Assembly: GCA_020629635.1 (NCBI GenBank)
Contig: JAHDCX010000007.1
Coordinates: 178,632-231,072, forward strand
Source: Acidimicrobiales bacterium
Lineage (GTDB): Bacteria > Actinomycetota > Acidimicrobiia > Acidimicrobiales > SHLQ01
Direction of reading: 5' to 3'
Length of the DNA: 52,441 nt
The notes beneath the pieces were generated by a model. That model was not told the DNA's origin, searched no databases, and was given only the letters and a program-made list of their open reading frames with translations. The stretch's first letter is position 1, and each line of letters opens with the position of its first letter. The position numbers and the translations under genes were made by a program. Shown here piece by piece: positions 1,983-50,037 of the stretch.

Positions 1983-3215
1983 GTGGAGGGACATGACGAC
2001 GACATCGACGCGGCGGGCGGTACGCCCGTGCCCGCAGACGACCGTCTGTGGCGTCATCCCGCCGAGCGCGGCGCCGAACAGGCGGCCGCCAACCTCGCCG
2101 CCCGACGCACGCACGGACGCCGTTGGCCGACCAATGTGATGTCGTTCCTGGCGGGCGCGTCGCTCGTCGGCCTGGCGTGGCTGCTGCAGGACAACGAGCC
2201 GTCGGTGATCGAAGAAACCGTCGTCCAGCAGATCACGCCCACGACGGCGACCATTCCGATCGACGGTCCGCTGCGCTTCGATGACTGGGCCGAAGAGGTC
2301 GCGATGACCAACATCAACAGCGTCATCGGGCTCGAGTTCGGGGACGGCGCGATGGTGCAGTCTGCGAACGCCGTGCTGTACGCCGATGACGGCCACCTCA
2401 TCACCACCGCCCATGCGATTGGAACGACCGAGGACATCACTGCGGTGTTGCCGAGCGGGGCGAGCATTCCCGCCCGCATCGTGGCGATCGACGCGGTGTC
2501 GGGCGTGGCGGTGCTGCGTATCAACTCACCCGAGCTGCCGCCGCCGAGCTTCGGCGATGAGCGGTCGGTGCGGCGAGGCGACCGGCTCGTGGCCATTGGA
2601 CGCAACGACATGTCGTCGGCCTCGATCCGCACGGTCGACGTCGTCGCCAAGGAATACGTTGCTCCCGCCGGCGAGAAGCACACGTTGACCGGTCTCATGC
2701 GCCTCACCGAGGAGATCGACCACTCGTTCACCGGCGCCCCGATCGTCGACGAGCATGGTGGGATCGTCGCGATGGCGGTCGGGGCGGACAACGGGTCGAC
2801 CCATGCGATGCCGATCACGCGGGTTCGGGCCGTCGCCGCCGAGCTGATCGAGACCGGCGAGACAGCCCACCGGGCGTGGATGGGGGTCAAGACCGAGCCG
2901 GTCAACTCGGCTCTCCGGGAACGCCGTGACCTGCGTGGTGGTGTCCTCGTGTCGCGCGTGTGGGAGCGCACTCCGGCGGCGCGGGCTGGCCTCCAGGCGG
3001 GCGACGTCATCGTCGCGGCGGGTACGGCCAACATCGTCGGCTTCGCGGATCTGTCGACGATCCTTCGTGCAGCGTCACCGGGCGATTCGATCGAGATCCT
3101 CGTGTCCCGAGTCCGGACCCTCAACGCGCAAGACGACGCCGCAGAGCCTCCGGAGCCCGAACTGTTGACGATCGTCGTGACCCTCGAAGCAACCAGCACG
3201 CATCTGACGCGCTGA
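1983..3215 (+). CDS. Membrane-anchored HtrA/trypsin-fold PDZ protein, probably catalytically dead
   Basis: 410 residues from a GTG start. The N-terminal cytoplasmic part holds DDRLWRHPAE (about 19-28), a motif I recall from actinobacterial HtrA-like proteins and the reason for choosing this start. A transmembrane helix follows (about 53-70), then a trypsin-like domain (about 85-285) and a PDZ domain (about 300-400, with RAGLQAGDVIVAAG). The HtrA His is present (H144 in TTAHAIG), but the Asp position reads Gly174 (SGVAVLRI where TDLAVL is usual) and the Ser position reads Thr250 (SFTGAP where GNSGGP is usual). Spacings of 30 and 76 residues match the HtrA triad, so this is not misalignment. 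The likely role is extracytoplasmic peptide binding or scaffolding rather than proteolysis. Confidence 0.87.
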   Translation: MEGHDDDIDAAGGTPVPADDRLWRHPAERGAEQAAANLAARRTHGRRWPTNVMSFLAGASLVGLAWLLQDNEPSVIEETVVQQITPTTATIPIDGPLRFDDWAEEVAMTNINSVIGLEFGDGAMVQSANAVLYADDGHLITTAHAIGTTEDITAVLPSGASIPARIVAIDAVSGVAVLRINSPELPPPSFGDERSVRRGDRLVAIGRNDMSSASIRTVDVVAKEYVAPAGEKHTLTGLMRLTEEIDHSFTGAPIVDEHGGIVAMAVGADNGSTHAMPITRVRAVAAELIETGETAHRAWMGVKTEPVNSALRERRDLRGGVLVSRVWERTPAARAGLQAGDVIVAAGTANIVGFADLSTILRAASPGDSIEILVSRVRTLNAQDDAAEPPEPELLTIVVTLEATSTHLTR

Positions 3216-5584: not shown

Positions 5585-7294
5585 TCAGTCCCAGAGCCGG
5601 TACTGGCCCTCGTCATCGGGCCGGGGAGGAAGGTCGACCGTCGTGGTCGGGTCGTCGGCGCCTGCGGGCGCAGGTAGCGGTGCCACGACGGTGGGATCGA
5701 GCGGTTCGTCGGGCGTGACCCCCACGTCGTGCTCAGGTGAGTCCGCAACCTCGCTCGGCGACGAGTCGTCCCGTCGGGCAGGCGACGGGAGGGCCTCGAA
5801 ATGTGGGGCGACGCGATCTCGCGCGCGGGCGATCGTGGCCATGAGTGGACGGACCTTGGCGACCGCTGGGTGCTGCTCGAAGCGTTCGACCGTCTCGGAC
5901 GGGACACGTTCTCGCAGCGCTTGGCGCACTCGAGAGGAACGCTGGACACGATCGGTGCGACGACCGAGCTCGTAGCTGGTCGCGGAGAATCCGGCGGCGA
6001 TCGCGATGAGCAGCGCGCCGACTTCGACCGGCAGGCGGAACACGACGGCGAGAAATGCACCGACGGCCCACGTGAGCTGAAATCGGCCCTCGAAGACGGC
6101 GAAGGCGCGGCCATGATTGGCTCGGGGCGCGTCACGTTGAACCAGCGCGTCGAAGCCGAGCTTGGCCACGGCGGCCGCACCACCGATCCCGAAGGCGAGC
6201 AATGCGGTTCCGGTGATGCCACCACCCCAGGCGGCGAGGAGGGCGGTCACGGCCGTCCAGATGAGGGCGCCGAAGACGAGGCGCTCTTCGGGGATTCGGT
6301 CGCGCAGGTCCGGTGCGTAGCGGGCGCCGAGCAGGGCGCCCACACCGGCCGCCAGTGCGGCAACGCCGAAATGCCACGAAGGGGGTCCCGGCTCGCCGAT
6401 CACATCGATGTCTCTGATCGTGCCGAGAGCGGCGCCGAGCGCCGCGCCGGGTTCGGAGCGTTCGACGCCGTCGTCTCCCGCGCGGAGATGGAAGGCGAGC
6501 AGGAAGGTGGTGAAGCCGACGATTCCTCGAAGCACGCCGACCGCGGTTGCGCCGAGCACGATGTTTGCGCCCCGAACCTCGAGTCGCTCGGTGATGTCGG
6601 CGGGCTCCGCGGCGATCTGCACCTGCGGAAGACGCGTCGCCGTCGTTGCCCCGAAGAGGTAGACGATCATGGCGAGGAACGTGGCGGCCGGACCGCCGAT
6701 CAATGCCACGAGGATGCCGCCGATCGCTGCGCCCGTCAGGCCACCGATCGAGCTCAGCAGGGCGAGCTTCGAGTTCGCTTCGATGAGTTCGTCTTCGCGC
6801 GGACAGACGGCGGGCACCATGGCGATCCGCGAAACCGCGTATCCCTTCTGCAGCACGAGCATGGCGAAGGCCTCGGGAAACAGAAGGAGCGAGTCGATGT
6901 GGCGGGTCATGAAGAACGCCACCAACGCCCGCGCGGCGAGCGAGCCGATGATCATGCCGCGGCGGCCGCCCTTGGCACGGTCGATCGCCGGACCGAGCAA
7001 AGGGGTCACGACCGCAAAGGGCGCGATCGTCAGGATCAGGTAGAGCGCAACACGCCAGCGGGCGTCGGACGGGTCGACCTGGAAGAAGATCGACCCGGCG
7101 AGTGCCACGGTAATGAGGCCGTCGGCCACCACGGACAGCCCGTGGACGCGAGCGAGCTGGGTGAACGGTGTGGTCCGGAGGCCATTGCCAAGACTCGATG
7201 GGCGCCGGGCACCGGTACGCGATCGGGGCCCCGACGTATCCAGCTCAGACCATCCCGACGACGACATCGCCTCTGAGTCTAAGTCGTCGGTCAA
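5585..7294 (-). CDS. MFS transporter
   Basis: 569 residues with about 12 hydrophobic segments between residues 50 and 430, and the conserved loop GPAIDRAKGGRRG after the second. A long hydrophilic tail of about 130 residues, rich in Pro, Asp, Glu and Thr, follows. The TTG start at 7294 overlaps the regX3 stop by 4 nt; an ATG nine codons downstream is an alternative. It is the last gene of the phosphate operon, which hints at phosphate-linked expression, but the substrate is unknown. Confidence 0.82.
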   Translation of the reverse strand: MTDDLDSEAMSSSGWSELDTSGPRSRTGARRPSSLGNGLRTTPFTQLARVHGLSVVADGLITVALAGSIFFQVDPSDARWRVALYLILTIAPFAVVTPLLGPAIDRAKGGRRGMIIGSLAARALVAFFMTRHIDSLLLFPEAFAMLVLQKGYAVSRIAMVPAVCPREDELIEANSKLALLSSIGGLTGAAIGGILVALIGGPAATFLAMIVYLFGATTATRLPQVQIAAEPADITERLEVRGANIVLGATAVGVLRGIVGFTTFLLAFHLRAGDDGVERSEPGAALGAALGTIRDIDVIGEPGPPSWHFGVAALAAGVGALLGARYAPDLRDRIPEERLVFGALIWTAVTALLAAWGGGITGTALLAFGIGGAAAVAKLGFDALVQRDAPRANHGRAFAVFEGRFQLTWAVGAFLAVVFRLPVEVGALLIAIAAGFSATSYELGRRTDRVQRSSRVRQALRERVPSETVERFEQHPAVAKVRPLMATIARARDRVAPHFEALPSPARRDDSSPSEVADSPEHDVGVTPDEPLDPTVVAPLPAPAGADDPTTTVDLPPRPDDEGQYRLWD

Positions 7295-7995
7295 TCCTCG
7301 TACTTGTAGCCGAGACCACGAATCGTGACGATGCGCGTCGGTTTCTTGGGGTCGGTCTCGACCTTGGACCGGAGCCGCTTGATGTGCACGTCGAGCGTCT
7401 TCGTGTCGCCGACGTAGTCCGCACCCCAGACCCGGTCGATGAGGACGTCGCGGGTCAGGACTCGTCCGGCGTTGCGCATCAGCAGCGCAAGGAGCTCGAA
7501 CTCCTTGAGCGGAAGGCTCTGTTGTTCGCCACGGATGACCACCTCGTGCCGGTCGATGTCGACGGTGACGTCACCAACCGAGATCGGCTCGGCATCTGTC
7601 TCGGCGGGTACCGCCTCGTCGTCGGACTCGAAGCGTCGCATGACCGCTCGGATGCGGGCGACGAGTTCTCGCAGCCGGTACGGCTTGGTCACGTAGTCGT
7701 CGGCGCCAACCTCGAGCCCGACGACCGTGTCGACCTCCTCGCCTTTCGCCGTGACCATGATGATCGGTGTGTTCGACTTGCTCCGGATGGCTCGACAGAC
7801 GTCGATGCCCGACATCGTCGGCAACATCACGTCGAGCAGGACGAGGTCGGGGCTGACCTCATCGAAACGACGGAGGGCTTCTGCACCATCAGAGGCGACG
7901 GTCACCGAGAAACCCTCACGACCCAGCCCCACGGTCAATGCTTCGGCGAAGCTCGACTCGTCCTCGACGACGAGCACGGACAGCTCGCGGCTCAT
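7291..7995 (-). CDS. regX3: OmpR/PhoB-family response regulator, RegX3-like
   Basis: 234 residues. The receiver domain (about 6-118) has the acidic pair ED at 11-12, phosphoacceptor Asp55 (LVLLDVMLPT) and the TKPY lysine. The winged-helix domain (about 135-230) ends RIVTIRGLGYKYED, typical of PhoB/RegX3. It lies directly downstream of its kinase gene (4-nt ATGA overlap) and of pst-phoU, so it should activate the pst genes under phosphate limitation; the PHO-box-like repeat before pstS is the likely target. PhoP of the Streptomyces type is the alternative name. Confidence 0.9.
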   Translation of the reverse strand: MSRELSVLVVEDESSFAEALTVGLGREGFSVTVASDGAEALRRFDEVSPDLVLLDVMLPTMSGIDVCRAIRSKSNTPIIMVTAKGEEVDTVVGLEVGADDYVTKPYRLRELVARIRAVMRRFESDDEAVPAETDAEPISVGDVTVDIDRHEVVIRGEQQSLPLKEFELLALLMRNAGRVLTRDVLIDRVWGADYVGDTKTLDVHIKRLRSKVETDPKKPTRIVTIRGLGYKYED

Positions 7996-9221
7996 CCCGT
8001 ACCCCCAGTCACTGCCTCGAGATCGACCTGGGTGGTCGCTCGGGTCGGCAGGATCAGCGTGAAGGTCGACCCGACCCCCTCCTGGGAGACGACCTCGACG
8101 CGACCCCCATGATTGGCGGCCACGTGCCGGACGATCGAGAGACCCAGTCCGGTGCCTCCGGTCTCGCTGCTGCGGGCTCGATCAACCCGGTAGAACCGCT
8201 CGAAGATGCGATGCAGGTCTCGTTGAGGAATGCCGACTCCCTCATCAGCGACGGCGATCGCGCAGTCTCCTGCGAGAACGGCCACCCGGACGTGTACGGC
8301 GCCACCGTCCGGCGAGTACTTGAGTGCGTTGTCGATGAGGTTCGAGAGCGCAGAGAACAGCTGGGCTCGATCGCCGATCACCTCGGGGCTCGCCGATGCA
8401 TGCTCGACCTGGAGCGAGACGCCGGATCGTTCGGCGCTTGCACGAAGCGCGGCGACGACGTCGTCGATCAGGGGGTCGATGGCGACCTCTTCGAGGTGAT
8501 CTCCTGCTCCCGCCTCGATCCTGCTGAGATCGAGAAGGTCGTCGATGAGGCGAGACAAGCGAGTCGTCTCCTTCTGAATGCGACCGAGGAAGTTGGCGAC
8601 GACAACCGGGTCGTCCTCCCCTTCGAGCGTCTCGGCCAGAAGTGAGAGTGCTCCGACCGGCGTGCGAAGCTCATGACTCACGTTGGCGACGAAATCCCGG
8701 CGCATCGCGTCGAGGCGCTGCTCCTCGGAGACGTCGTCGATGAGCACGATGGCGCCGATCACCTCGGCATCGACGACGAGCGGCGAACCAACGATGAACA
8801 GCATTCGTTCGGGCGGCCCGTGGAGTCGAACCTCGGCATCGGTCACCTCACCGCCAAGTGCGTCGGTGAGCCGCGCCTGAATCTCGGCCTCGACCAGCGC
8901 GTCGCCGTGGCGACCCGTGGCGAAAGGTGCGGCCATGCGGTTTCGCATCACGATGGAGCCGGTCTCGTCGGCGAGCACGGCGCCGGTGCTCATCTGGTCG
9001 AGGGCGGCCATTGCCCGCCGCGGCGTCAGGTCTTCCTCGACGGTCGCGGCCCGCTCGAGTCGGTCGAGGGCAGCATCGATGGTCTGCGGCGGCACGCCAT
9101 CGTCGCCGGTGGTGCGAAGCGTCGCCGACACCTTGTCGAGCCACGTCGCTTCTCGTCGCCGGGTTGCGGTCAGGACACCCGCCAACACGACGCAGAGGAT
9201 GAGGGTGGTCGCCAGCCACAT
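7992..9221 (-). CDS. senX3: Phosphate-sensing histidine kinase, SenX3-like
   Basis: 409 residues: one N-terminal membrane helix (about 2-20), a PAS-like domain (about 72-168), a HisKA domain with phosphoacceptor His183 (VSHELRTPVGAL), and an ATPase domain with N-box NLIDNALKYSPDGG, G1 VADEGVGIPQ and G2 GGTGLGLSIV. There is no extracytoplasmic sensor, which fits kinases that read phosphate status through PhoU and the Pst transporter. Only one membrane span is visible, where mycobacterial SenX3 has two. The gene starts 4 nt after phoU ends and overlaps regX3. Confidence 0.89.
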   Translation of the reverse strand: MWLATTLILCVVLAGVLTATRRREATWLDKVSATLRTTGDDGVPPQTIDAALDRLERAATVEEDLTPRRAMAALDQMSTGAVLADETGSIVMRNRMAAPFATGRHGDALVEAEIQARLTDALGGEVTDAEVRLHGPPERMLFIVGSPLVVDAEVIGAIVLIDDVSEEQRLDAMRRDFVANVSHELRTPVGALSLLAETLEGEDDPVVVANFLGRIQKETTRLSRLIDDLLDLSRIEAGAGDHLEEVAIDPLIDDVVAALRASAERSGVSLQVEHASASPEVIGDRAQLFSALSNLIDNALKYSPDGGAVHVRVAVLAGDCAIAVADEGVGIPQRDLHRIFERFYRVDRARSSETGGTGLGLSIVRHVAANHGGRVEVVSQEGVGSTFTLILPTRATTQVDLEAVTGGTG

Positions 9222-9225
9222 CGAT

Positions 9226-9960
9226 CTAGTCCGCCTCGTCCTCCGGCTCGATCAGCCGGGCGATGTCGTCGTCGGAGATGGCTCCTTCGTCCGCGCGGGC
9301 GGCACCGATCGCCTCGGGCGATTCGCCGGTGACCATGTACTGGACGCGCTCGCCGATGTTGACCGCGTGATCGCCGATGCGTTCGTAGTACCGAGCGATC
9401 AGCGCGAGCTGCACCGTTTCCTGGATGCTCAGTTCGCCAGAGGCTGCCGCGGCAAAGATCGCTTCGATGAAGTCGCTCTGCAGATCGTCGAGCCGGTCGT
9501 CGATGTCGCCGAGCGCAGCAGCAAGCCCCACATGCCCCTCGGCGTAGGCGTCGATCGACAGGCGAGTGAGACGGACGGCTTCTTCGCTCATCGACGTGAT
9601 GAGCCCTCGCAGGGTGGGCGTGAGCGCCATGCCGTAGCTGCGGCGCACTCCCTTGCAGATGTTGACCGCCAGATCGCCGGATCGTTCGTACTCGCCGTTG
9701 ATCTTCATGGCCGTGACGATGCGACGCATGTCCGATCCCATCGGACCTTGCAGCGCGATCAACGAGTAGCACCGCTCTTCGATCTGGACGGACAGAAGGT
9801 CGAGAACGTCATCGCCTGCGATGACGTTCTGGGCGAGCTCGAGATTGTTCTCGACGAGCGCCTCAGTCGCCCGAGGGATGGCCTCGGTCACGTGCGCCGC
9901 AAGCGTGACGAGCATCCCTCGGATCGAATCGAGGTCCTCGTGAAATCCGGTCATCGACAC
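9226..9960 (-). CDS. phoU: Phosphate signalling protein PhoU
   Basis: 244 residues forming two similar three-helix bundles. Each has the metal-binding signature: MKINGEYERSGDLAVNI (about 86-102) and ARYYERIGDHAVNIGE (about 188-203). PhoU links the Pst transporter to the SenX3-type kinase and keeps the regulon off when phosphate is ample. It sits between pstB (1 nt gap) and senX3. An ATG two codons downstream is an equally good start. Confidence 0.93.
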   Translation of the reverse strand: MSMTGFHEDLDSIRGMLVTLAAHVTEAIPRATEALVENNLELAQNVIAGDDVLDLLSVQIEERCYSLIALQGPMGSDMRRIVTAMKINGEYERSGDLAVNICKGVRRSYGMALTPTLRGLITSMSEEAVRLTRLSIDAYAEGHVGLAAALGDIDDRLDDLQSDFIEAIFAAAASGELSIQETVQLALIARYYERIGDHAVNIGERVQYMVTGESPEAIGAARADEGAISDDDIARLIEPEDEAD

Positions 9961-9961
9961 G

Positions 9962-10861
9962 TCAGCCGAACCTGCCGGTGATGTAGTTCTCGGTGCGCTC
10001 GTCGTCGGGGTTGGAGAACAGCTTGGCGGTGTCGGTGTACTCGACCAGAAGGCCGGTGCGACGGTCGTTGTGCTCGTCGAGTTCGACGCTGAAGAACGCG
10101 GTGCGGTCCGAGACGCGTGCGGCCTGTTGCATGTTGTGCGTGACGATCAGGATCGTGTACTCGGACTTGATCTCGGCCATCAGCTCTTCGATCCGAGCTG
10201 TCGCGATCGGGTCGAGCGCCGAGCAGGGCTCGTCCATGAGGAGCACCTCGGGCTGCGTGGCGATCGCTCGAGCGATCGACAAGCGCTGCTGCTGACCGCC
10301 GGAAAGTCCGATGGCCGAATCACCCAGGCGATCCTTCACCTCGTCCCACAGGGCGGCCTTGCGAAGACTCGACTCGACGACCTCATCGAGACCCTTCTTC
10401 TGACCAGCGATCCGCGGGCCGTAGGCAACGTTGTCGTAGATCGACTTGGGGAACGGGTTCGGCTTCTGGAACACCATGCCGATCCGTCGACGAACCTCGA
10501 CAGGGTCGACCCGAGGGTCATAGAGGTCGACGCCGCGGTAGATCAGATCGCCGGTCACCCGGGCGGTGGGGATCAGGTCGTTCATGCGATTGAACGATCG
10601 AAGCACCGTCGACTTGCCGCAGCCTGATGGGCCGATGAGGGCGGTGATCTGGTTGCGTTCGACGGTCATGTTCACGTCGCGCACCGCGCGGAAGTCGCCG
10701 TAGTAGACGCTCAGGTCCGACACGTCGAAGACGAGGTCGGCCGGGTCGACGGGCGTCGAGGCTGGTGCTGCCTCGGGCGCAGCGGCGGTCGGCGCCTCGA
10801 CCGTGATGTCGGAAGTTGTCTCGTCGGTCACGCTGACCCCTGTATCGGTGGTATTGGCCAT
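9962..10861 (-). CDS. pstB: Phosphate ABC transporter ATP-binding protein PstB
   Basis: 299 residues. Walker [10 protein letters not shown] (about 77-85), Q-loop [18 protein letters not shown], signature LSGGQQQR, Walker [14 protein letters not shown] and the switch His in VTHNMQQA are all present. About 42 Thr/Glu/Ala/Pro-rich residues precede the domain, making the protein longer than the usual 250-260. Its place in pstSCAB-phoU makes the assignment secure. Confidence 0.96.
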
Positions 10862-10866
10862 CGGAT

Positions 10867-11817
10867 TCAGCCCCTCTTCTTCTCGAAGCGATTGCGGAGT
10901 GTCACGGCGATGGAATTCATCAAGATAACGAAGACCAGCAGCACGACGATCGCCGCGCCAGCTGCGGGGCCAAATCCTTGGTCACGCCCGGACTCCTGAA
11001 CCCAGCCCACGATGACAATCGGCATTGCGGTGAACCGATCAAAGATCTGGTCGAGGGACAGAAGGCCGTCGCCGCGTGGGGCAAGGCGGTCCGTGATCGC
11101 TCCGACGAGGATCAACGGTGCCGCTTCGCCAATCGCACGGGCGAGCGAGAGCAGCGTGCCGGTCAGGATGCCTGGGGCGGCATACGGCAGGATCTGCGTC
11201 CGAATGACGTCCCACTGCGTCGCACCCACGCCGTAGGCGCCCTCGCGAAGACTCGACGGCACCGCTCGAATGGCCTCGGCAGCGGTGATCACGACGATCG
11301 GCAGCACGAGAATGGCAAGCGTGACACCTCCAGCGAACAGCGTGGAGTTGCCATCTCTGGTGGCGACGAACAGGGCCAGGCCGAGCAGGCCGTAGACCAC
11401 CGACGGCACGCCGGCGAGGTTGCGAATCGCCACGTCGATGACCGAGGTGATGAAGTTCTCCGAGGCGTACTCCTCGAGGTACACCGCCGCGGCGATGCCG
11501 ATCGGAAAGGACAGCGCAATCACGAAGATCGCGATCCAGAAGGTTCCGGCGAGGCCCTGACCAATGCCGAGTGCGTCGTCACTCGAGCGCGAGCGGAGCG
11601 TGCCGGTGAAGAAGTCGACGAAGCGTTCGCTCAACACGGGCCAGCCATCGGTGAGCACCTGAATGAGCAGCGTGATGAGAAACAGCGAGGCGAGGAAGAG
11701 CGCCGAGAGCAACAGATACTGAAAGCCGCGGCCCTTGAGGTCGCGTCCTTGCCGATAGATCTCGGCGTCGACTCGAGCAGTCGTTCGCCCGTTGCCGCCG
11801 ATGGTGGAGAGCGCCAT
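10867..11817 (-). CDS. pstA: Phosphate ABC transporter permease PstA
   Basis: 316 residues with about six membrane helices. [15 protein letters not shown] and the EAA coupling loop ([19 protein letters not shown]) are typical of PstA, and [13 protein letters not shown] is the conserved helix after the loop. It lies 5 nt before pstB. It forms the membrane channel with PstC. Confidence 0.94.
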
Positions 11818-11828
11818 GGTCGGTCCTC

Positions 11829-13007
11829 CTAGTACTTCTCACGGACGTTTCGCACGAAGCGAGCGCCGATGACGTTGAGGGTGAGCGTGATCAAGAACAG
11901 GACGAAACCCACAAAGTAGAGGCTCTGGAAGGTGAGCCCTTCGCCGACCACGTTGTCGGTGCCGGTGGCGAGTGACGCCATCCCAGCGGTCATGGTGAGC
12001 CCGCCTTCGAATGGCGAGTCGGTGAAGCGCGCGGCGTCGGCTGCGCCGCCGGCCATGAAGACGACCATGGTTTCGCCAATCACGCGGGACACGCCGATGA
12101 TGAAGGCGGCGACGATTCCGGACACCGCCGCAGGCAGCACGATCTGTGTGGTCGTGGTGACCTTGCGGGCGCCGAGGCCCGCCGAAGCCTCTCGGAGTTC
12201 GCGTGGCACCGACGCCAGGGCGTCTTCGGAGATGGAGGCGACAAGCGGGATGGTGAGGATGCCGACGCCGATCGATGCGGCTGCGAGCTGACCGGACCGC
12301 TTGACCTGGAAGAAGTTGGCCGCACCCGCGTCGCCGGACCCCGCGGTGCGCAGAATCCACCAGACCATGACCAGCCCCACGAGCACGAAGAGGGTGAGCA
12401 CGATGATCCGGGTGAACATCTGCGCAGCGCTGGTGCTGGCCTCTCGCTGCAGCGTCCGGCGTACCCAGATCACCATCATGGCGACGTAGCCGGTCAGGAT
12501 CACGGCGCCGATGATCAGCCAGCCGGAGCGGCTGATCCGCTCGACGATCTGGGGGCTCAAGAAGAACAGCGCAAAGAATCCGAGGACGACCGACGGTACG
12601 CCGGCAAGCACTTCGAGCACGGGCTTGAGGATCGACCGGGTGCGGCGCGAGGCGTACTCGCTGAGATAGATCGCCGAGCCGAGGCCGATGGGGCCGGCGA
12701 CGAGCATCGAGATCACGGTGACGATCAGCGATGCGACGAGCAGGGTCGGCATGTCGTAGAGACCCTGCCGGGGGAACCAGCCGTTCTGGCCCCAGGTGTT
12801 GGCCCACTCGACCTCGGTGATGAACACCCAGGCCTCACGCACGAGGCTCCACACGATGGCGGCCGAGACGATGATGCTCACCGTCGCGGCAAGAAAGAAG
12901 ACCGCCTTGATGGCGCCTTCCTTGCGAGCTCGAGCGGCGGGGCCGGAGAGGGCGTCGAGCGAGAGAGTCGTACCAGACGATCGTGTCGGCACGGTGATGT
13001 CAGACAT
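11829..13007 (-). CDS. pstC: Phosphate ABC transporter permease PstC with an internal insertion
   Basis: 392 residues from the ATG at 13007. [15 protein letters not shown], the EAA loop (EDALASVPRELREASAGLGA) and GVSRVIGETMVV identify PstC. Between the GVPSVV helix and the conserved GVGILTIPLVAS helix there is an insertion of about 70-90 residues with two further hydrophobic segments (WLIIGAVILTGYVAMMVIWV and IIVLTLFVLVGLVMVWWIL). This gives about eight spans rather than six. The gene follows pstS after an 85-nt gap holding a strong hairpin. Confidence 0.93.
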   Translation of the reverse strand: MSDITVPTRSSGTTLSLDALSGPAARARKEGAIKAVFFLAATVSIIVSAAIVWSLVREAWVFITEVEWANTWGQNGWFPRQGLYDMPTLLVASLIVTVISMLVAGPIGLGSAIYLSEYASRRTRSILKPVLEVLAGVPSVVLGFFALFFLSPQIVERISRSGWLIIGAVILTGYVAMMVIWVRRTLQREASTSAAQMFTRIIVLTLFVLVGLVMVWWILRTAGSGDAGAANFFQVKRSGQLAAASIGVGILTIPLVASISEDALASVPRELREASAGLGARKVTTTTQIVLPAAVSGIVAAFIIGVSRVIGETMVVFMAGGAADAARFTDSPFEGGLTMTAGMASLATGTDNVVGEGLTFQSLYFVGFVLFLITLTLNVIGARFVRNVREKY

Positions 13008-13035
13008 GGGGTACCACCCAATCAGATCAGCCGCC

Positions 13036-13071
13036 GGGGGAACGAGTCCGCAGGATGCGAACCCGTCCCCC
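13036..13071 (-). terminator. Hairpin between pstS and pstC (attenuator or mRNA stabiliser)
   Basis: Arms gggggaacgagt (13036-13047) and acccgtccccc (13061-13071) pair with one bulge and one G-T wobble around a 13-nt loop. No T-run follows on the minus strand, so full termination is unlikely. Such structures after pstS commonly protect the pstS message and reduce downstream transcription, giving excess binding protein. The structure is seen in the sequence; the role is inferred. Confidence 0.5.
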
Positions 13072-13092
13072 GGATGGCTTTGGTGGAGGGGA

Positions 13093-14058
13093 TCAGCTGC
13101 CCCAGGCAGCCCGAACCTCGGCCTTGCTGTCGTCGGCGAGCGGCACGTAGCCGACCTCGCCAACCGCAATGTCGAGACCATCAGCGACGTAGAAGTCGAC
13201 GTAGGCCTGGAGGGCGGGGTTCTCCGCCGCCTTGCCGTCGTTCACGTAGATGTAGAGGTTGCGCGAGATCGGGTACTCGTTGGAGGCGATCGTGTCGGCG
13301 TTGGGAGCGATACAACCGTCGCCGCCGTCGACCTCGATCAGCTTGACGTCGGCGCTCTCGGCGAAGGCGAAGCCGACCCAACCAAGACTCGTGTCGGAGC
13401 TCTGGATGCCCTGGAGGATCAGGTTGTCTTCGGCCGACGGGTTGTAGTCGGTCCGGGTCGTGGCCTCAACGCCAGCTTCTTCGGCGAGGTCCTCGAGCAC
13501 GATCTCGATGAACGAGTCGTAGGTACCTGACTCGGCACCCGGCCCGAAGATGTCGAGCGGTGCATCCGGCAGCGACGAATCGGCGGCTGCCCAGGTGGAG
13601 GCGCCTTCGCCATTCGGGCCGATCAGGTTGAACAGGTTCTCGAAGGTGAGGCACTCGATCGGGCTGTTGGAGTTGGACATCACCGCGATGCCGTCGATGC
13701 CAACGAGGATCTCGGTGAACTCGATGCCGTTGGCAGCGCAATCCTCGGCCTCCGCGTCCTTGATCTGGCGAGATGCATCAGAGATGTCGGTCTCACCGGA
13801 GCAGAACTTCTTGAAGCCGTCGCCGGTTCCCGGGCCTTCGACGTCGACCCGGACCCCGGGCTCGACGTCTTCGAACAGCTCGGCCACCCGGGTTGAGATT
13901 GGGGCAACAGTCGACGATCCAGAGATGAAGACGTCGCCGGTGAGGCCACTGTCGTCGGTCGCGGTGTCGTCGGAGTCGCTACCGCAGGCTGCCGCCACGA
14001 GCGACAGCGTCATCATCAGGGCCAGAAGCTGGAGCAACCGGCGAATTCCACGTGTCAC
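13093..14058 (-). CDS. pstS: Phosphate-binding lipoprotein PstS
   Basis: 321 residues from a GTG start. GAGGAGGG (14064-14071) ends 5 nt before the GTG, a strong ribosome-binding site that decides the start. The signal peptide ends in a lipobox-like VAAAC, so the mature protein begins at Cys about residue 26 and is lipid-anchored. GDVFISGSSTVAPIS and GTGDGFKKFCSGETDISDASR are the phosphate-binding loops of PstS. It delivers phosphate to PstCA-PstB and is the first gene of the operon, downstream of a PHO-box-like repeat. Confidence 0.95.
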   Translation of the reverse strand: MTRGIRRLLQLLALMMTLSLVAAACGSDSDDTATDDSGLTGDVFISGSSTVAPISTRVAELFEDVEPGVRVDVEGPGTGDGFKKFCSGETDISDASRQIKDAEAEDCAANGIEFTEILVGIDGIAVMSNSNSPIECLTFENLFNLIGPNGEGASTWAAADSSLPDAPLDIFGPGAESGTYDSFIEIVLEDLAEEAGVEATTRTDYNPSAEDNLILQGIQSSDTSLGWVGFAFAESADVKLIEVDGGDGCIAPNADTIASNEYPISRNLYIYVNDGKAAENPALQAYVDFYVADGLDIAVGEVGYVPLADDSKAEVRAAWGS

Positions 14059-14148
14059 AGAAACCCTCCTCAGGGATGCCGGGCGAACCTCTCGCCCATC
14101 TGCAGTTCCGAACGGTAGAAAGCGCGTCTGGCGCGAATGTGGGGGCGA

Positions 14149-14166
14149 GGTGAACTTCGGGTGAAC
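14149..14166 (-). promoter_or_regulatory. PHO-box-like direct repeat upstream of pstS
   Basis: On the minus strand GTTCACC occurs twice exactly 11 bp apart (plus-strand GGTGAAC at 14149 and 14160). This is the spacing and core of actinobacterial PhoP/RegX3 direct-repeat operators (GTTCACC-type units). A weaker GTTCA lies further upstream. It is 91 bp from the pstS start, in front of an operon that encodes its own RegX3-like regulator. Confidence 0.7.
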
Positions 14167-44497: not shown

Positions 44498-44547
44498 GTC
44501 ATCCAGGGGTCTGCGGGCGCCTCACGAAATCCTCACGAATGGCTCCG

Positions 44548-44553
44548 TATGAC
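44548..44553 (+). promoter_or_regulatory. Candidate -10 for the DUF1800 operon (leaderless)
   Basis: TATGAC, 7 nt before the ATG at 44561; the final T is replaced by C. A CTCACGAA direct repeat (44521 and 44533) lies upstream and may be an activator site. Confidence 0.3.
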
Positions 44554-44560
44554 GTGAGCC

Positions 44561-45913
44561 ATGCCTGACAACTCGCCGTCCAACGCGGCGCACCTGTTGC
44601 GTCGTGCCGCTTGGGGCGGTCGCCCCGAAGAGATCGAAGCTGCCGTCGACGCCGGGATCGACGCAACCGTCGACGCCCTCCTTGACGCGAGCGACGCGCC
44701 AACCGTCGGCGAACCAATGCGTGACCCGGAGGTGCACAGCTATTCGATCGACGAGTTGATGAGCTGGTTTGTCCGGCTGTGCGCAACGTCGCCGACCCCC
44801 GCGATCGAACGGCTGACCTGGTTCTGGTCCGGCCACTTCGCCACGAGCGTCGAGAAGGTCGAATGGGCCGACCTGATGCACCGCCAGTACGTGACGTGCC
44901 GGCGCCTCGGTCTCGGCAGATTCGACGAGCTGCTCAAGGCGATCACCCGCGATCCGGCGATGATCATCTTCCTCGACCTCGATCAATCGATCGCCGGCCG
45001 CCCCAACGAGAACTTCGCCCGAGAACTCCTCGAGCTGTTCACGATGGGGGCGAGCAATGGCTACACCCAAGACGACGTGGTCGCCGCCGCGAGGGCGTTG
45101 ACAGGCCACGGTGTCGAGTTCGTCTACGAACGTCCTGCTGCGCTTCGACTCAACCCCGGTACGCACGACCATGGCCGCAAGACGTTCCTCGGGCGGTCCG
45201 GGAACTTCGACGGCGACGACATCATCGACATCGTCACGGAGCGACGCGAATGCCACGAGTTCATCGCTCGGCGATTCTGGCTCCGCTACGCCGGAACGAC
45301 TGCGAGTCCGGCGATCGTCGCTCGCCTGGCGGACGCGTTCGGCGACCGACTGCGCATCGACGACCTGCTGCGGACCATGTGGACGCTGGATGCGTTCTAC
45401 GAGAACGACGTGACCTCGGGACTCGTCAGCCAACCGTTCGAGGTGCTCATCCGAACGGTCCGAGGGTTCGACCTTCCGCTTTGGGACTCCGAGTCGATCC
45501 ACGCCGGCGCCGCCGAAGACGACGAAGACGGCCCCTTCGCCCTCGAACCGTGGTTCGTTGCAGACAACGCCTTCGCCATGGGTCAGCCTCTCGGCGTTCC
45601 CCCGAACGTCGCAGGCTGGCCACACAACGAGCCGTGGCTCGACAGCAATCGTGCCGCGTCCCGGCTCGTCGCTGGGGTGGCGCTCGGCCACCTGATCGCC
45701 GACCTCGATCTCGAGGTCTCGGAGACGCTCCGCCAACGAGCACACGACCCGGACGCACTCGCCAGCTCGTTGTTCGAACGATTCGGCGTGGTCGACGTCT
45801 CGTCGCAGACCGTCGACGCCATCACCGCTGCCACCCGAGGCCTCGCTCCCATCGAATCCGTCGCTTCGGCATTCGCCGTTGCCTTCACGTCACCGGAGGT
45901 GACGCTCGCATGA
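44561..45913 (+). CDS. DUF1800 protein
   Basis: 450 residues. HLLRRAAWGGRPEEI near the start, LTWFWSGHFATS, GRPNENFARELLELFTMG (the most conserved DUF1800 block), YTQDDVVAAARALTG, HDHGRKTFLGR and PPNVAGWPHNEPWLDS all match. Function unknown; the family nearly always sits next to DUF1501. No signal peptide is visible, although the partner has a Tat signal, so export may depend on it. First gene of a five-gene operon with the overlap ATGA. Confidence 0.9.
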   Translation: MPDNSPSNAAHLLRRAAWGGRPEEIEAAVDAGIDATVDALLDASDAPTVGEPMRDPEVHSYSIDELMSWFVRLCATSPTPAIERLTWFWSGHFATSVEKVEWADLMHRQYVTCRRLGLGRFDELLKAITRDPAMIIFLDLDQSIAGRPNENFARELLELFTMGASNGYTQDDVVAAARALTGHGVEFVYERPAALRLNPGTHDHGRKTFLGRSGNFDGDDIIDIVTERRECHEFIARRFWLRYAGTTASPAIVARLADAFGDRLRIDDLLRTMWTLDAFYENDVTSGLVSQPFEVLIRTVRGFDLPLWDSESIHAGAAEDDEDGPFALEPWFVADNAFAMGQPLGVPPNVAGWPHNEPWLDSNRAASRLVAGVALGHLIADLDLEVSETLRQRAHDPDALASSLFERFGVVDVSSQTVDAITAATRGLAPIESVASAFAVAFTSPEVTLA

Positions 45914-47247
45914 CCGTCCCACCCTCACCCCGACCACCCACACCCTTTGGGCGATCACGGCCCACGTCACGCCGCCACTTCTTGCGGATGGGAGGAGCCG
46001 GTGTGCTCGCCGGCGCAGCGACCGTCGCCGGCGGCGGCGCTCTCGAACGACTCCTTCGAGCGGGCGTCAGTCCGGCCGAAGCGGTCTATGTGCCGGGAGT
46101 CGATGTGTCCGACACCGGACGGATCCTGGTGATGATCCAACTCGACGGTGGCCTCGACTTCCTCAACACGATCGTGCCCACCGGCTCCCGCTACCGCGAT
46201 CTCCGGCGAGGTGGCGGAGCGCTGAACGACGACGAACTCCTCCGTCTCGACTCCCACTACGACATCAACGCCAACCTGCCGGGCCTGGCCGCGAGCTGGA
46301 CGGCGGGCGAACTCGCCGTGGTGCACGGCGTTGGCTTGCCGCAGAGCAGCCTCAGCCACTTCGTCGACCACGACGCCTGGGCTCGCGGGCGCCTCGAGGT
46401 CGCTGACGGATCCGGGTGGCTTGGTCGCACCCTCGACGCGCTGGCGGTCGACGCCGACCCGATGATCGGAATCAGCGTCGGCGGACTCACGCCGGCCATG
46501 TCCGGGCCACGCTTCAATTCGGTGGCGCTGCCCGACGACGGACAGCTGCCATGGTCGGCAGCCTTCGTCGAGGGCAACCCCGGCATTGTCGCGGCGTTTC
46601 AACAGATGCTCACCGACGCAGGGCAGACCGGTGCCACGCAGACGCTCGCCGACCGAGTGCGCACGAGCCAGCACCTCGTCCGCGACGTCGCTGCCGCCGT
46701 GTCGGGCGCGACCGACCTCGACGCGCTCGCCGAAGCCGCGGAGATCTTCGGCGAAGACGACGACGCATTCGAGGGCGCCGGACCGCTCGCCAACCAACTT
46801 CGCCTCGTGGCCGACCTCATCAACGGAGGTCTCCCAACCCGGGCGTACCACACACGATTCGGCGATTTCGACACACACGCTGGCCAACAGGGCCGTCTGC
46901 CGATTCTGCTCGGAGAGGTCGACCAAGCCATCTCAACATTTCGCAACGCATTGGGCGCCAACGCGGACCGGGTCGTGATCGCCACGTGGACCGAATTCGG
47001 CCGTCGGCCAGACTGGAACGGCGACGGCACCGACCACGGCACGGCCGGCACCCAGTTCGTGCTCGGCGCAGGGGTGAGCGGCGGCCACTACGGCGAGCAT
47101 GTCTCGCTCGACCGATTCGACCGAGACGACAACTTCCGGGTCACAACCGACTTCTCGACCTACCTCAGCGGTCTCGCCCAGAGCGTGCTCGGCGTCGATG
47201 CATCCGTGGCCATCCCCGGCCAGCGCACCCCCATGGAGTTCACGTGA
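45910..47247 (+). CDS. DUF1501 protein with Tat signal
   Basis: 445 residues. The twin-arginine motif TSRRHFLRM (about 19-27) is followed by a hydrophobic stretch (GGAGVLAGAATVAGGGA), so it should be exported folded through the Tat pore. ILVMIQLDGGLDFLNTIVP, LSHFVDHDAWARG and VVIATWTEFGRR are DUF1501 blocks; the fold is related to sulfatases and alkaline phosphatases. Overlaps neighbours at both ends (ATGA, GTGA). Its role with DUF1800 is unknown. Confidence 0.9.
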   Translation: MTVPPSPRPPTPFGRSRPTSRRHFLRMGGAGVLAGAATVAGGGALERLLRAGVSPAEAVYVPGVDVSDTGRILVMIQLDGGLDFLNTIVPTGSRYRDLRRGGGALNDDELLRLDSHYDINANLPGLAASWTAGELAVVHGVGLPQSSLSHFVDHDAWARGRLEVADGSGWLGRTLDALAVDADPMIGISVGGLTPAMSGPRFNSVALPDDGQLPWSAAFVEGNPGIVAAFQQMLTDAGQTGATQTLADRVRTSQHLVRDVAAAVSGATDLDALAEAAEIFGEDDDAFEGAGPLANQLRLVADLINGGLPTRAYHTRFGDFDTHAGQQGRLPILLGEVDQAISTFRNALGANADRVVIATWTEFGRRPDWNGDGTDHGTAGTQFVLGAGVSGGHYGEHVSLDRFDRDDNFRVTTDFSTYLSGLAQSVLGVDASVAIPGQRTPMEFT

Positions 47248-47861
47248 GCAACCCCCACGAACCAGAGACATCAGCGCCACAGTGGCGAGCGTCAGCCGGG
47301 ATCTTCGTCCTCGCCCTTGCGGTGACCGCGGCGCTCGGCCTCGGCGTCACGCGTTGGGGATCTGCCGAAGCCTCGCCCCGACTTCCCGACCCTGCAGAGT
47401 CGATGGCTGTGCCAACCACCGTGGCCGAGACTTCGGTGGACGAGGACGAGGCTGCAGCGGAGGATGGCGATCTGGATCCACCGGAGGTCGATGCCCCCGG
47501 ACCAGTCGACCAATGCGAGGCACTCGAGCAGGAGCTCTGGGACCGCGAAGAAGACGACCGCATCGACTGGGACGAGTTCGAGCTGCCCGAGCTCACCGAA
47601 GAAGAGCTCGAACGGGTCGAGGTGGATCCGATTCCGTTCGATGGCACGGTGCTCGACGCCGACTCGGAGCCACAACCCGTCGCCGGGTTCGACGACACGC
47701 TCGATGTGGATGCGCTCGACAACGCGCTGCTCGTGGCAGCGATGGACGCGTGCTGGGAGTCGGAGATTCTCATCGACGTCGACGCACCCGCCGAAGAAGA
47801 GGAAGACGACGCGGCGTTTGACGACGAGGTGCTCGACAAAGCCGATGAGGACGAGGAGTAG
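47244..47861 (+). CDS. Highly acidic membrane-anchored protein
   Basis: 205 residues from a GTG overlapping the previous stop. One membrane helix (about 17-35), then an extracellular part in which about one residue in three is Asp or Glu, with only two Cys (PVDQCEALEQ, DACWESEIL), which could pair. The C-terminus is almost entirely acidic. No domain recognised. Such a chain could bind Ca2+ or other cations. It lies between the DUF1501 gene and a two-component system whose kinase also has an acidic ectodomain, so it might be a ligand or regulator of that kinase. Confidence 0.7.
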   Translation: MSNPHEPETSAPQWRASAGIFVLALAVTAALGLGVTRWGSAEASPRLPDPAESMAVPTTVAETSVDEDEAAAEDGDLDPPEVDAPGPVDQCEALEQELWDREEDDRIDWDEFELPELTEEELERVEVDPIPFDGTVLDADSEPQPVAGFDDTLDVDALDNALLVAAMDACWESEILIDVDAPAEEEEDDAAFDDEVLDKADEDEE

Positions 47862-47872
47862 GGTCCGGAACG

Positions 47873-48544
47873 ATGCGCATCCTGGTGATCGAAGACGATC
47901 CCGACATCCGCACGTCGGTGGAGCGGGCGCTGCGTGGCGACGGATTCGCCGTCGACACGGTCGACGATCTGGTCGATGCCGAGGTCAACCTGTCGGTGAA
48001 TGGGTACGACACGGTCGTGGCCGACCGAATGGTCCCATCGGGCGATACGACCACCTTGGTCTCGGCCATTCGACGGGAGGGCCGGTCGGTCCCGGTGCTG
48101 TTCTTGACGGCACGTGACTCTGTCGAAGACCGCGTCGAGGGCTTCGAGGTCGGCGGCGACGACTATCTGGTGAAGCCGTTCGCCATGGACGAGCTGATCG
48201 TCCGAGTCCGCGCCCTCTGTCGACGAGCGCAACACACCTCCGCCCCATCCACGCTCGTCGTCGGCGACCTCGAGTTCGACCGTGGCCGCGCCGAAGTTCG
48301 CCGCAACGGCGTGCTGCTTCCACTCACCGGCAAGGAACGCTGCATCCTCACGCAGCTCGCCGATACACCCGGCGTTGCCGTGTCTCGAACGGCGTTGATC
48401 GAGCATTGCTGGGACGAGCATCACGACCCGATGTCGAACGTCGTCGATGCGCATGTGGCCACGTTGCGACGCAAGCTCGGCTCGCCCAATCCCATTCGCA
48501 CGGTGCGAGGAGTCGGGTTCGTGCTCGAATCCGAGCTCGAATGA
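47873..48544 (+). CDS. OmpR-family response regulator
   Basis: 223 residues. The receiver has acidic ED (about 7-8), phosphoacceptor Asp51 (TVVADRMVPS) and the lysine in LVKPF; the winged-helix domain has LPLTGKERCILTQLADTPG and ends RTVRGVGFVLE. The start is supported by TAGGGT 8 nt upstream, which uses the preceding stop codon; there is no Shine-Dalgarno. ATGA overlap with the kinase. Target unknown, possibly this operon. Confidence 0.92.
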   Translation: MRILVIEDDPDIRTSVERALRGDGFAVDTVDDLVDAEVNLSVNGYDTVVADRMVPSGDTTTLVSAIRREGRSVPVLFLTARDSVEDRVEGFEVGGDDYLVKPFAMDELIVRVRALCRRAQHTSAPSTLVVGDLEFDRGRAEVRRNGVLLPLTGKERCILTQLADTPGVAVSRTALIEHCWDEHHDPMSNVVDAHVATLRRKLGSPNPIRTVRGVGFVLESELE

Positions 48545-50037
48545 CGACACCGAGGCCGGCGACCAACCGAGAACTGCGCCGGCTCCGCTGGCGGATCACC
48601 TTCTTGATCACGTTGCTCGCGACCGTGGCGGTGGTCGTGTTCGCCGTCGTCGCGATCCGGCTCGACCGAAACCTGCGCGACGAACAACTTGACGCCGAGT
48701 TGCTTCGGCTGACCACCCGTACGGCTGGGCTCGTGACCTTCACCGATGGCGACCTCGACCTCACCGACGCACAACCGCTCGACCCGGACGTCATCATCGG
48801 GGTGCGCAAGCCGTTCGACGTGTTCGCGATTGTCGAGGACCAGGACCTCTGGGACGAGATCCCCGAAATCTCCGACGAGGAAGAAGCTGAGCGCATCATC
48901 GAGGTGGTCGACGGTCTCGACATCGTCGACATGCGCGGCATCCTCGAATTCGATCTCGGATACGAGGACGCCGATGGCTTCGACCGCGAGGAGATGCGCG
49001 AGATCCTGCTCGACGAGGTGCCGGAGGATCTGACCAACGAGGCCTACCGAGCGTTTCTGCTCGATGTCGCTCGCGACGAGGGCTTCGACCTGGCGATGGC
49101 GACCGACATCATCAGTGACGAACCGTTCGGCCTGGACTCGCCGACCGCGGCGTTCGGCGTTCGACTCGTCGCCGACGAGGACGAGACGGACCTGTTCGAA
49201 CTCGACGACACCGGGCTGCTGGTCCGGGGCGTACCGTTGCGTTCGGGCGCCGAGATCCGCGGCGCGATTCTGGCGGTCGGGGACCCATCATTCGGTGATG
49301 CAGACCACGCCGACTTCCGACAGTCACTTCTCCTGACCGGAGCGCTACTCGTGCTCGGCTCGGCGATCGCCGCATGGCTGGTCGCGGGGAGAACGATTCA
49401 GCCCGCCGCCCGAGCGCTCGCCCAGCAGGAGCGGTTTCTGTCCGACGCCGCACACGAGCTGCGGACCCCGATCGCCGCCATCCGAGCAACCGCCGAAACG
49501 GGGGCCGACGCACCCGGGGAAGCGCTCGATCGCGTCGCCGTGCTCGCGGGTGGTGCAGCGCAGCTGACCGATGACTTGTTGACCCTTGCCCGCATGGACG
49601 CGGACCGCCTGACGCTGGAGAAACAGCCAACCCGTCTCGACCTGCTGGTCGAAGCGCTGATCGACGACGACCCAGCCTTTGTGGTCGACGCAAGCGAGTC
49701 GATCGTCGACTGCGATCCGCGGCTCGTCCAACGCGCCGTCGACAATCTGCTCCGCAACGCACGGCGACATGGCCAGGCGACAGCGAACACGCCAGCCACC
49801 GTCATCGTCCTCGACGGGATGGTTCGTGTGACGGATCGGGGGCCGGGCATCGACCCGAACGTCGCCAACGAGCTCTTCGAGCGATTCCGCTCGAGCAGTC
49901 GCTCATCCGGTCACGGGTTGGGCCTCCCCCTCGCCCGATGGATCGCCCAAGCCCACGACGGTGACCTCGTTGTCGTGCCGACTGACAACGGCGCCTCCTT
50001 CGAGCTACGGCTGACTTCCGGTCACGTTGGTGTCTGA
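48541..50037 (+). CDS. Sensor histidine kinase with acidic extracellular domain
   Basis: 498 residues: membrane helix (about 19-40), an ectodomain of about 215 residues very rich in Asp and Glu, a second helix (about 262-284), then HisKA with phosphoacceptor His in SDAAHELRTPIAAIR and an ATPase domain (NLLRNARRHG, VTDRGPGID, GHGLGLPLAR). HAMP is short or absent. The acidic sensor suggests cation, pH or peptide sensing. The final GHVGV and stop are encoded by a 31-bp repeat at 50020. Confidence 0.9.
   Translation: MTTPRPATNRELRRLRWRITFLITLLATVAVVVFAVVAIRLDRNLRDEQLDAELLRLTTRTAGLVTFTDGDLDLTDAQPLDPDVIIGVRKPFDVFAIVEDQDLWDEIPEISDEEEAERIIEVVDGLDIVDMRGILEFDLGYEDADGFDREEMREILLDEVPEDLTNEAYRAFLLDVARDEGFDLAMATDIISDEPFGLDSPTAAFGVRLVADEDETDLFELDDTGLLVRGVPLRSGAEIRGAILAVGDPSFGDADHADFRQSLLLTGALLVLGSAIAAWLVAGRTIQPAARALAQQERFLSDAAHELRTPIAAIRATAETGADAPGEALDRVAVLAGGAAQLTDDLLTLARMDADRLTLEKQPTRLDLLVEALIDDDPAFVVDASESIVDCDPRLVQRAVDNLLRNARRHGQATANTPATVIVLDGMVRVTDRGPGIDPNVANELFERFRSSSRSSGHGLGLPLARWIAQAHDGDLVVVPTDNGASFELRLTSGHVGV

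Follow-up and report, generated by a model that had tools for sequence, protein, structure and literature searches.

The operon at positions 44561–50037 of the Acidimicrobiales contig stretch analysed here (52,441 nt in full; hereafter the window) comprises five co-directional genes on the + strand, encoding a DUF1800 protein, a DUF1501 protein with a twin-arginine translocation (Tat) signal, a membrane-anchored protein with two cysteines, an OmpR/PhoB-type response regulator and a sensor histidine kinase. As judged by comparison of related loci, the five genes are one conserved unit, preceded by a direct repeat of 11-bp period at the −35 position of the predicted promoter. We regard it as reasonably probable that the whole is a self-regulated envelope enzyme operon, consisting of a sensor, a regulator with its box, an exported enzyme pair and a modulator. 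The initial annotation, which was made from the DNA alone, had proposed an enzyme system of the envelope that carries its own sensor; this proposal is well supported by the conserved gene order, by a class-specific box at a fixed distance and by a sister two-component system, likewise with this box, beside another DUF1800/DUF1501 pair.

Orthologues of the window's DUF1800 protein (49–59% identity) were found in five genomes of the same order (G226, G403, G407, G415, and G223), and the clade they form was supported 100/100 in the tree. Together with the window they are referred to as class A (six members). In each of the four loci whose contig is long enough (G226, G403, G407, and G415), which come from another family of the taxonomic order and have DUF1800 proteins 54–58% identical to that of the window, the genes for DUF1800, DUF1501, a small transmembrane (TM) protein, the regulator and the kinase follow one another directly in this sequence, and this recurrence places the arrangement beyond chance; the G223 contig ends inside DUF1501 and so falls outside the count. 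Other DUF1800 proteins of the window's own genus and GTDB family are at most 38% identical. Among 57 loci sampled across phyla, pairing of DUF1800 with DUF1501 was nearly universal, in line with the annotation of a widespread pair, and a two-component system lay close by in only 2. Gene-order conservation, proposed with that annotation as a check, therefore holds within the orthologue clade and not outside it.

The class A operons are preceded by two direct copies of a 7-bp motif separated by 4 bp, in the window TCACGAA-ATCC-TCACGAA (44522–44539, + strand). This putative response-regulator box at the −35 position starts 39–40 nt before the ATG in six of six members. When the class A sequences were aligned on the ATG, the box was the most conserved stretch, and any stretch of equally high conservation was seen in 1 of 20,000 shuffles. 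A putative −10 box follows (TATGAC, 44548–44553, + strand, 7 nt before the ATG in the window; TACAAC in most orthologues, with the element ∼10 nt before the ATG in class A generally), and the closeness of this conserved TACAAC/TATGAC element to the ATG suggests that the operon transcript is leaderless. A TTGTACTCT stretch lies shortly before the regulator start in two orthologues (L139, 7560–7590, and the matching stretch of L162), where it may be an internal promoter. No convincing second site for the exact box of the window was found with three mismatches allowed.

Linkage of DUF1800/DUF1501 to two-component systems is recurrent in this lineage. The host draft genome (4.45 Mb) carries six DUF1800 and six DUF1501 copies and only 23 OmpR-type DNA-binding domains above the cut-off, and three of its six DUF1800/DUF1501 pairs adjoin a two-component system. 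Besides the class A layout, two others could be distinguished. Class B, seen in seven fully read genomes of the genus, has the order OmpA/fasciclin membrane protein–regulator–kinase–DUF1800–DUF1501 (L173 and L176–L181). In class C, which occurs in the genus and in a sister genus, the regulator and kinase genes are divergent from DUF1800–DUF1501 (L174 and L182–L188); several of these loci have an M1-peptidase-like protein after DUF1501. In the regulator tree, A and C formed one clade as sister groups (97/92), to the exclusion of the genome's other OmpR-type regulators as far as the tree included them, and B fell on a different branch, which points to at least two origins of the linkage. Regulators of A and C also have a common recognition helix, SNVVD-x-H-x3-LRRKL, which differs from that of the genome's PhoB.

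The box follows the same division. In class C intergenic regions, TTCAY-N6-TTCAY occurs on both strands, at 15 sites in all, where shuffled sequence gave a mean of 0.007; every site has period 11, and none was found at the other periods examined from 6 to 16. The distance is again 39–40 nt from DUF1800, and the same distance separates the box from the regulator start in five of the eight loci; in L184 the regulator-side box is duplicated. Counted over unique loci, with related genomes not fully independent, a box at 39–40 nt was present in 14 of the 15 DUF1800 promoters of classes A and C and in 1 of the 103 remaining ones (p = 4e-16). No such box was found in class B loci, nor in the intergenic region of a Chloroflexota locus with a divergent two-component system (L076).

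There is precedent for recognition of such repeats: OmpR/PhoB regulators bind direct repeats as tandem dimers, and Mycobacterium tuberculosis PhoP strictly requires 7-bp motifs with a 4-bp spacer (PMC4832192). The box of classes A and C, their shared clade and shared recognition helix, and this precedent together indicate that the regulator would bind the box and drive the enzyme pair as well as its own genes. In the mechanism that we propose, the kinase ectodomain would read the state of the outer membrane face or the cell wall, and the phosphorylated regulator would bind TTCAY-N6-TTCAY as a tandem dimer and activate one leaderless transcript of all five genes (positive autoregulation). As output, Tat-exported DUF1501 would act with DUF1800 in phosphoryl or sulfuryl transfer, or in hydrolysis, with a polymer of the envelope or outside the cell as target, and the anchored two-cysteine protein would modulate the kinase from outside, as has been suggested for CseA on CseC. 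The sister system, with the same box, would run a second DUF1800/DUF1501 pair in the genus.

Gene calls bore out the coupled operon of the initial annotation, with 4-nt overlaps at all junctions but one: in gene order, the junctions are −4 (ATGA), −4 (GTGA), +11, and −4 (ATGA) nt. The DUF1800 gene (44561–45913, + strand) encodes 450 aa matching PF08811 at 306.9 bits (gathering score 26.1; E 3.5e-91), and the DUF1501 gene (45910–47247, + strand) encodes 445 aa matching PF07394 at 86.6 bits (gathering score 27; E 2.5e-24). They are followed by the genes for the acidic single-TM protein (47244–47861, + strand; 205 aa, GTG start), the regulator (47873–48544, + strand; PF00072, Response_reg, and PF00486, Trans_reg_C), and the kinase (48541–50037, + strand; HisKA and HATPase_c, with TM segments at 21 and 263 flanking a ∼220-aa ectodomain). 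A receiver and winged-helix regulator beside a HisKA/HATPase kinase identifies the last two as an OmpR/PhoB two-component system. Regulator orthologues within class A are 67–76% identical and kinase orthologues 47–52%, with the cytoplasmic part of the kinase most conserved.

For DUF1501, export via Tat was already part of the initial annotation, and the predicted signal, SRRHFLRM in the window, is matched by an SRRxFL-like motif at the start of all six class A proteins. The structural model (mean pLDDT 76, core mostly >85) has the fold of the alkaline phosphatase superfamily: Foldseek gave 1.8e-5 to a sulfatase, and VIA-align gave a best Z of 18.6 to a nucleotide pyrophosphatase/phosphodiesterase (239 residues, rmsd 3.4), with 492 chains at Z ≥8. 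Invariant residues are D83, S149-H150, D321, H323, and H376; in the alkaline phosphatase superfamily, Asp, Ser and His residues of this kind form the nucleophile and metal site. The model thus supports DUF1501 as an exported enzyme of this superfamily.

The DUF1800 model is confident and mostly helical (AF2 pLDDT 90, pTM 0.90), and the fold search with it returned no meaningful match in the Protein Data Bank (PDB; Foldseek best E 0.93, VIA best Z 3.5). Sequence searches of the PDB, whether by single protein or by profile, yielded nothing of use for DUF1800 or DUF1501. As annotated, the window's DUF1800 has no signal peptide, and no N-terminal extension lies ahead of its domain. Tat-like leaders occur on DUF1800 in a few relatives, including one paralogue of the same genome, a lower bound from an automated scan in which many domain starts were uncertain, and this implies that DUF1800 acts outside the membrane, at least there. 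Hitchhiking of the window's DUF1800 with Tat-borne DUF1501, as the initial annotation suggested, is a possible route of co-export. Elsewhere in the same genome (L171, contig C34, 3305–9405), an 811-aa DUF1800 with a Tat-lipoprotein-like leader is followed by DUF1501, and CotH-like and DUF4956-like genes were recognized there by eye. In the literature searched, where few papers mention these families, we found neither a biochemical function for DUF1800 or DUF1501 nor a description of a two-component system linked to them.

The third protein had been annotated as extremely acidic and membrane-bound. In the window this holds: Asp plus Glu (D+E) make up a fraction of 0.317, the highest of the 46 genes called (the next has 0.213, and the median is 0.153). 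A single TM segment is placed at residue 18. No Pfam or NCBIfam match was found, and a sequence search gave no relative in the genus; orthologues were recovered by operon position only and, at 20–43% identity, are too divergent for most sequence searches. The four orthologues retain the single TM segment near the N-terminus, a linker of Pro, Ala and acidic residues, and two cysteines with a spacing of 76–81 residues; the second cysteine usually lies within a CWE/CFE-like sequence. The cysteines, C91 and C170 in the C-terminal extracytoplasmic region of the window protein, may form a disulfide-bonded outer domain. The extreme acidity is not kept: three orthologues have a D+E of 0.19–0.22 and the remaining one has 0.28.

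Beyond the operon, a relaxed form of the motif gave 12 sites in the window's genome against 1 for a reversed control; several of these sites lie inside genes, and two are the class C sites. On contig C33 of the same genome (L225), the gene for a 610-aa lipoprotein with no Pfam family is a candidate trans target of the window's regulator: exactly 39 nt upstream of its ATG stands TTCACGAAACCTTCACGG (3176–3191, minus strand), which agrees with the G226 operon box in all 18 bases. A third DUF1800 pair, with no adjacent two-component system, was found in three genomes (L038, L027, and L030) with a related repeat, CTTCAGG-N4-CTTCATC, 49–50 nt before the start. The window itself holds a complete Pho cluster (7291–14165), comprising a PhoB-like regulator (7291–7995), a kinase, phoU, pstB/A/C, and pstS. 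Among the relaxed-motif sites is a repeat of this cluster, TTCACCCGAAGTTCAC at 14150–14165, 92 nt before pstS, which looks like a true PHO box.

That repeat bears on the question of which regulator acts at the operon. Were the operon a member of the Pho regulon, PhoB would bind its box in phosphate starvation, DUF1501 would be a secreted phosphatase or phosphodiesterase for scavenging, and the linked two-component system would serve other genes. The similar PHO box motif of Streptomyces coelicolor, GTTCACC (PMC4415409), the close match before pstS and the nucleotide pyrophosphatase/sulfatase/phosphatase fold of DUF1501 speak for this; the confinement of the box to DUF1800 promoters linked to A/C regulators, its presence before the class C regulator genes themselves and a recognition helix unlike that of PhoB make it improbable. 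Chance neighbourhood of a two-component system unrelated to the enzyme pair would accord with the rarity of adjacent two-component systems in the cross-phylum sample, yet it is contradicted by conservation, since the order is kept across genera, the box is held in common and the linkage recurs in three layouts, and we give it almost no credence. Several points nevertheless weigh against a self-regulated envelope enzyme operon. Given the resemblance of Streptomyces PHO boxes to the operon box and the box of this kind at pstS, PhoB could act there; autoregulation and binding of the box are deduced from sequence comparison; occurrence is sporadic, as neither the genus nor the GTDB family of the window yielded another orthologue of the operon; for the DUF1501 active site, the match is one of fold and invariant residues rather than of superposed ligands; and the anchored protein is confined to class A, so that its role as modulator leans on gene position and topology.

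For the anchored protein itself, two other roles were considered. The initial annotation had an acidic pair, the anchor and the kinase ectodomain, sensing Ca2+, and the kinase ectodomain is indeed acidic in the window (28% D+E over 222 aa). An acidic sensor of Ca2+ or another cation for the exported complex would suit the strong negative charge of both proteins in this genome. It is at odds with the drop in anchor acidity in three of the four orthologues, where the TM segment and both cysteines are kept, and no Ca2+-binding motif family was among the Pfam or NCBIfam matches. Because acidity varies among orthologues, Ca2+ sensing by the acidic pair was rejected, and cation sensing at large appears very unlikely. 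The anchored protein might otherwise be a substrate, inhibitor or anchoring subunit of DUF1501/DUF1800, with the kinase sensing a wall or polymer signal unaided. Translational coupling of its gene to DUF1501 in four of five loci, the gap before the regulator gene, and a fast divergence, as expected of a surface or substrate-like protein, speak for such a role, and its absence from class C, which has otherwise comparable enzymes and regulators, speaks against it; we consider it rather unlikely.

Viewed across the order, the A/C regulators may be a family dedicated to DUF1800/DUF1501, acting in cis in two layouts (co-operonic and divergent) and probably also in trans, on the 610-aa lipoprotein gene and the third pair, a proposal that we put forward tentatively. 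If true, a pathway dedicated to sensing the envelope would have the enzyme pair as its output. DUF1800 and DUF1501 co-occur across many phyla, and the box, the linked regulator and kinase and the DUF1501 fold make both their role and their trigger directly testable.

Aspects of the operon can be compared with known systems. DUF1800–DUF1501 pairs have been noted in bacterial chitin synthase clusters, where a Tat motif was recorded and no function given (PMC5122149); the window shares the adjacency and the Tat motif on DUF1501, whereas it has no chitin synthase and adds a two-component system and an anchored protein. DUF1501, compared at the level of fold and of its invariant Asp/His/Ser set, resembles nucleotide pyrophosphatase/phosphodiesterases and sulfatases, at 10–15% identity. 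The box is like the sites of M. tuberculosis PhoP and Streptomyces PhoP in its 7-bp repeat, 4-bp spacer and TCAC core (PMC4832192, PMC4415409), and differs in that the regulator is of a different subfamily and the box is tied to DUF1800/DUF1501 and to the regulator's own genes. In layout, the closest parallel is Streptomyces sigE-cseA-cseB-cseC, in which the output gene is likewise followed by a membrane-attached extracytoplasmic protein, an OmpR-type regulator and a kinase, and the regulator switches on the operon's own promoter (PMC6767563). The window operon is not a member of the CseABC/sigma-E system: its proteins reach 159.5 bits with the CseB model (cut-off 350) and 70.9 with the CseC model (cut-off 700), no sigma gene is present, the output is an exported enzyme pair rather than a sigma factor, and the anchor is a TM protein rather than a lipoprotein. 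By analogy, it may work in the way that CseABC does.

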